A DNA stretch of 35,292 nt from Winogradskyella sp. (lineage in GTDB: Bacteria; Bacteroidota; Bacteroidia; Flavobacteriales; Flavobacteriaceae), in contig JABDKL010000034.1 of assembly GCA_013002225.1 (NCBI GenBank), forward strand, positions 1-35,292, written 5' to 3'. Under the pieces are notes generated by a model. The model had not been told where the DNA came from and searched no databases. It saw nothing but the letters and a program-made list of their open reading frames with translations. Position 1 is the first letter of the stretch; every line of letters starts with the position of its first letter. Below, piece after piece: positions 34,601 through 35,077 of the stretch. A program made the translations under genes and the position numbers.

Positions 34601-35077
34601 TTCCATGTATTTAGACTTATAGGTAATGTATGGGTCGTCCATATCTACCCAATAACCCATTTTTTGAGTAAGATCGTTCCAGATATCTGTGTAGCGCATG
34701 ACCGCTTTTTTACAAGCTTCATTATATGCTTCTACAGAGATTTTACTACCAATATCTTCTTTGGTAATTCCAAGTTCTTTTTCTACTCCAAGTTCTATGG
34801 GCAAGCCATGTGTATCCCATCCTGCTTTTCGTTTCACCTGAAAACCCTTCATGGTTTTGTAGCGTGGAAATATATCTTTTATAGCACGTGCTAATACATG
34901 GTGAACTCCAGGTAGACCGTTTGCAGAAGGTGGTCCTTCAAAAAACACATAAGGTGGTTTTCCTTCTCTAGTGGTTACACTTTTTTCGAAGATATTATTA
35001 GCTTCCCAATAGTCACTGATCTGGTCTGCGACAGCTGGCAAGTTAAGTCCTTTATATTCAGGAAACTTTGTACTCAT
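31673..35077 (-). CDS. ileS: Isoleucyl-tRNA synthetase, IleRS2 type, with GVHH signature motif
   Basis: 1134 residues, the long eukaryote-like class. It charges tRNA-Ile with isoleucine and edits valine. The Rossmann core begins at about residue 40 ([22 protein letters not shown]). The class I HxGH signature is replaced by GVHH at residues 57-60, confirmed in the codons. The CP1 editing domain is at about 190-450, and KMSKR lies in [14 protein letters not shown]. The anticodon-binding domain runs from about 770 ([11 protein letters not shown]), followed by an extended C-terminal domain. All other conserved blocks are present, so a functional enzyme is expected. It heads the ileS-dksA-DUF4097-lspA run; ileS near lspA is a widespread arrangement. 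Confidence 0.96.
   Translation of the reverse strand: [1134 protein letters not shown]

Follow-up and report, generated by a model that had tools for sequence, protein, structure and literature searches.

The window analyzed here, a 35,292-nucleotide stretch of Winogradskyella sp. DNA, carries a gene for isoleucyl-tRNA synthetase (IleRS) in which the four residues of the class I signature read GVHH where class I synthetases have HxGH. This raises three questions: whether the exchange is genuine, whether the protein that carries it is the working IleRS of the cell, and whether the motif was acquired locally or inherited together with the gene.

The window encodes a type 2 IleRS with a swapped signature motif

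The open reading frame of ileS is full-length, and its product scores 993.1 bits against TIGR00392 (curated cut-off 621.4), which identifies it as an isoleucyl-tRNA synthetase (Table 1). G57, V58, H59 and H60 are specified by the minus-strand codons GGA GTT CAC CAT (34909-34898). The first-pass annotation had read GVHH at these residues in place of HxGH, and this reading is confirmed both by the codons and by an ungapped alignment at the motif with PDB entry 8c8w, the GVHH mutant of Priestia megaterium IleRS2 (phmmer, PDB sequences). Through the motif the window protein is identical to 8c8w; 8c8u and 8c8v have HVGH in the same four columns. An alternative His-x-Gly-His was looked for and none was found in the whole 1134-residue protein, which contains exactly one GxHH, and the 8c8w alignment fixes GVHH column for column. 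With Gly in first and His in third position, the protein carries the G/AXHH motif of IleRS2 as defined by Brkic et al. 2023.

Table 1 Features of the ileS locus in the window.
Feature	Coordinates	Strand	Basis or remark
ileS, isoleucyl-tRNA synthetase type 2, 1134 aa	31673..35077	minus	TIGR00392 and nearest solved structures, P. megaterium IleRS2 8c8u-w
GVHH, residues 57-60, replacing the class I HxGH signature	34898..34909	minus	alignment; GxHH kept in 198/198 phylum genomes
10-residue motif, residues 360-369	33971..34000	minus	presumably the editing-domain motif
KMSKR, residues 682-686, second class I signature (KMSKS loop), Arg last	33020..33034	minus	
C-terminal domain PF19302 (DUF5915), residues 940-1133	31679..32260	minus	
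dksA/traR-type zinc-finger protein, next gene downstream of ileS	31288..31668	minus	PF01258
220-aa ORF, TTG start, between dksA and lspA	30612-31274	minus	
lspA, signal peptidase II	29919..30584	minus	PF01252

Judged by its sequence, the window enzyme is a type 2 IleRS, because it matches type 2 structures with far higher scores than type 1 structures, PF19302 is present and no Cys follows residue 838. In phmmer searches of the PDB, the chains of P. megaterium IleRS2 reached 811-822 bits and the Thermus thermophilus enzyme 698 bits, compared to 307-315 bits for the P. megaterium IleRS1 chains and 308 bits for Staphylococcus aureus IleRS1. Type 2 and eukaryotic IleRS structures outranked type 1 in both sequence and fold searches with the window protein. 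Its only Cys residues are 122, 456, 536 and 838; therefore, an IleRS1-type C-terminal zinc cluster is missing, which agrees with the published definition of type 2 by a C-terminal domain without the IleRS1 zinc-binding motif (PMC10485003).

The P. megaterium IleRS2 structures (8c8u, 8c8v and the mutant 8c8w) share with the window protein the type 2 fold and the EGPPxANGLP flank of the motif, at 37-38% identity in Foldseek alignments; with its 1134 residues, the window protein exceeds their 1032-residue chains by 102 aa. The motif of 8c8w matches letter for letter but is engineered. The first-pass annotation had ascribed to this species a natural GxHH IleRS2 with extreme mupirocin resistance; this proved wrong, as the wild type has HVGH and GVHH is the engineered mutant (PMC10485003, 8c8w).

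An AlphaFold model of the window IleRS, built from 23 sequences (mean pLDDT 80.9, pTM 0.69), places residues 58-67 in a helix right behind the strand 42-47, the expected site of the motif. The model is of modest confidence there (block pLDDT 62-76; 70 at residues 681-690) and is silent on side-chain geometry. Its closest folds by E-value (Foldseek) were 8c8v, 8c8w, 8c9d and 8c8u. We do not trust the relative placement of the domains because the overall rmsd is near 10 Å.

The motif is fixed in the sampled Bacteroidota

We examined ileS in 198 genomes, including the window's own, drawn evenly from the phylum with a completeness of at least 90% requested. They carry 39 family and 103 genus labels; 49 (own genome included) belong to the window's class and 149 lie elsewhere in the phylum. 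The census used a protein search followed by fetching of the matched regions, with one locus per genome; we omitted rows L002-L005 and L203-L210, which hold other genes or duplicates from the own genome. GXHH was present in all 198 genomes, as GIHH (140), GVHH (56), GLHH (1) and GMHH (1), and none of them showed HxGH, HxHH, GxGH or AxHH; in one genome (G176) ileS is cut at a contig end with the motif still readable. A second set, collected from named genomes with a profile of 16 IleRS, comprises 80 loci, 79 from Bacteroidota and one unassigned (L267). Three are partial genes that end short of the motif, and the remaining 77 all have GXHH (GIHH 75, GVHH 2). Sampling was separate for the two sets, and some species may occur in both.

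Because all 198 sampled genomes keep G-x-H-H at this position, GVHH in the window is not a chance deviation. Together with the 77 readable loci, the census shows the swap to be fixed in everything sampled from the phylum, where GXHH is the normal state of IleRS. The swap itself has been published before; what we add is a census of it in the phylum.

The second class I signature behaves differently. KMSKR, with Arg in last position, was found in 44 of the 49 genomes of the window's class and in 2 of 148 readable genomes elsewhere (46 of 197 in total), as well as in 73 of the 80 named loci. It is thus a class-level marker, and the closed form of this loop has been linked to weaker mupirocin binding (PMC10485003). 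As a separate observation, one locus (L043, G067:C5:3371-6520) has a single internal TAG within the ileS frame, due to a sequencing error or another cause.

Gene neighbourhood and tree placement point to inheritance within the phylum

The genes that follow ileS in the window recur in the named loci. Among all 80, dksA follows ileS in 53, lspA in 45 and both in 41; when only the 61 loci with at least 3 kb of sequence past ileS are considered, the counts are 45, 40 and 36, and counting on either side of ileS in all 80 loci gives 53, 46 and 42. The core ileS-dksA-lspA run put forward in the first-pass annotation is therefore common in the phylum (both genes in 36 of 61) but not universal. The ORF between dksA and lspA had no Pfam match at E 0.001; of the 80 named loci, just one (L215, Mesonia, 34% identity) contains a match, which likewise lies between these two genes. 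Further along the window, positions 27134-29405 of the plus strand encode, head to tail, a putative ATP-dependent zinc protease (PF05618), a RimK-type ATP-grasp ligase and an AstE/AspA-type deacylase.

In a FastTree phylogeny of 274 IleRS, the 12 rows separated from the window enzyme by the shortest branches all belong to Flavobacteriaceae or are labelled with the same family as the window; the closest is an uncultured member (L212), followed by Aestuariibaculum marinum (L211), at 83% identity.

These data bear on the possibility that recent selection by mupirocin-like antibiotics made or kept the motif here, or that a recent gene transfer brought it in. Antibiotic pressure has been proposed as a general driver of the swapped motif (PMC10485003), and multiple ancient transfers of ileS2 have been inferred (PMC4861432). 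However, the motif is common to all 198 genomes from 39 families, the nearest relatives in the tree come from the window's own family, and the neighbourhood of ileS is a common one in Bacteroidota, which together leave a recent origin very improbable. Fixity in the phylum thus argues against recent acquisition, and within Bacteroidota, to which our comparison extends, the swap has the look of a trait fixed and inherited in the phylum rather than acquired locally. On the same comparison, an ancient transfer of ileS that preceded the radiation of the phylum is possible. The first-pass suggestion that the motif may have spread widely in Bacteroidota is borne out as to its extent, but descent from an early ancestor fits the distribution better than spread.

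A single IleRS was found per genome

A swapped motif could also mark a paralogue or a decayed copy, with a canonical IleRS elsewhere doing the work. The window's own genome is fragmented (214 contigs, 95.12% complete, 4.28% contaminated), which makes a second ileS conceivable. A search for such a gene, as the first-pass annotation had proposed, found one IleRS only, the single protein over the TIGR00392 cut-off in this assembly. Its other matches are frames of 890, 973, 708 and 506 aa, far under the cut-off, two of which read HMGH and AGLHVGH at the aligned site; by length and score, we take all four for other class I synthetases.

The same pattern holds across the phylum. Exactly one IleRS exceeded the TIGR00392 cut-off in each of 150 genomes searched, several of which are listed as single-contig assemblies (in two, G057 and G103, the single IleRS was counted from two pieces of one frame). 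The remaining 48 of the 198 genomes were searched with the window protein, and no second IleRS-like match appeared among the matches listed (to about E 1e-12); the non-IleRS matches listed there all score at most 113 bits, and IleRS1 structures give at least 200 bits with the same query. Given these counts and the full-length frame, a paralogue or decayed copy is more improbable still than a recent origin of the motif. Misalignment or a sequencing error, with the true HxGH lying elsewhere, is ruled out by the lack of HxGH in the protein, the column match with 8c8w and the agreement of the 197 other genomes.

Since it is the only IleRS found, the window enzyme should be a working housekeeping protein, and its activity in isoleucine activation is inferred from the same sole status. 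Taken as a whole, we put the probability at about 93% that the window encodes a housekeeping IleRS2, the only one found, with the GXHH motif already described, to which we add by inference its catalytic mechanism, its inheritance from an early ancestor and an intrinsic insensitivity to mupirocin.

Proposed mechanism and predicted insensitivity to mupirocin

Published work explains a swap of this known kind. Brkic et al. 2023 reported G/AXHH in 86 IleRS2 and HXGH in 77, with HXGH in all 158 IleRS1 sequences, and described at least two origins of G/AXHH plus a reversion in Deinococcus-Thermus (PMC10485003). Placing GXHH into IleRS1 led to a loss of activity, and crystal structures of IleRS2 show a shifted tip of the motif helix, where the third His fits beside the adenine and replaces the first His (PMC10485003). 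G/AXHH was tied to a mupirocin Ki up to 1000-fold higher, and a clash of the third His with the antibiotic was derived from modelling (PMC10485003). Introducing GVHH raised the Ki of T. thermophilus IleRS2 from 0.20 to 35 µM and that of P. megaterium IleRS2 from 1.08 to 460 µM, with some penalty in kcat and KM, and the naturally ALHH-bearing IleRS2 of Deinococcus radiodurans fell from 6600 µM to 8.1 µM when converted to HVGH (PMC10485003, Table 1). For Streptomyces griseus IleRS2, said to share the swapped motif, a Ki of 10 mM is given (PMC4861432). The latter two enzymes have a naturally swapped motif like that of the window protein, to which we liken them by their published description; they come from other phyla, and D. 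radiodurans has ALHH rather than GVHH (PMC4861432, PMC10485003).

Bacteroidota are not named among the groups with IleRS2 listed in PMC4861432, and the string 'bacteroid' does not occur in the main text of PMC10485003, whose tree may well contain the phylum. Bacteroidota names were also looked for in PMC13188873, and none were found. Literature on mupirocin, IleRS and Bacteroides or Flavobacterium, mostly titles and abstract openings, yielded no mupirocin measurement on a Bacteroidota IleRS.

If the window enzyme resembles these relatives, its backbone at the third motif position would lie 1.7 Å off that of IleRS1, leaving room for a His without displacement of the adenine. The imidazole at this position would then act in the transition state in place of the first His, as shown for relatives, and the same bulky side chain would clash with mupirocin and raise the Ki. 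Enzyme-level insensitivity, as claimed in the first-pass annotation, is therefore the consequence expected by homology (PMC10485003), and the window enzyme is very probably mupirocin-insensitive. How large the effect would be in this enzyme is uncertain because the Ki values of GXHH enzymes range from 35 and 460 µM (engineered) to 6.6 and 10 mM (natural). The motif probably goes back to an early ancestor of the phylum, and the insensitivity would be intrinsic.

The IleRS2 variants MupA and MupB, which NCBIfam treats as mupirocin-resistance families, are plasmid-borne in Staphylococcus. The window protein is clearly similar to both (756.3 bits for NF000257 and 751.1 bits for NF000258); we rejected an assignment to either, as these scores are far under the curated 1900-bit cut-off and the gene lies in a core-gene neighbourhood.

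Implications for Bacteroidota

Rather more tentatively, and at less than even odds, GXHH in Bacteroidota may be an ancestral state that has become locked in, and no resistance adaptation under current selection. The motif is fixed throughout the sampled lineages, the 198 genomes contain neither HXGH nor a single-step intermediate (HxHH, GxGH or AxHH), and a return to HXGH would need two coupled changes, supposedly by way of a poor enzyme; a swap that dates to an ancestor and is hard to reverse would agree with this fixity. Such a lock-in would contrast with Deinococcus-Thermus, for which reversion has been reported (PMC10485003). If it holds, an old rearrangement in catalysis would, as a side effect, have left the whole phylum insensitive to mupirocin.

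The occurrence of GXHH as the normal state of IleRS in all sampled Bacteroidota leads to the prediction that mupirocin should fail on these bacteria at its target. It also touches on annotation practice: the isoleucyl-tRNA synthetase of Ornithobacterium hominis is listed under mupirocin in PMC10835994, and resistance-gene pipelines that list Bacteroidota IleRS under this heading may be flagging an ordinary housekeeping gene.
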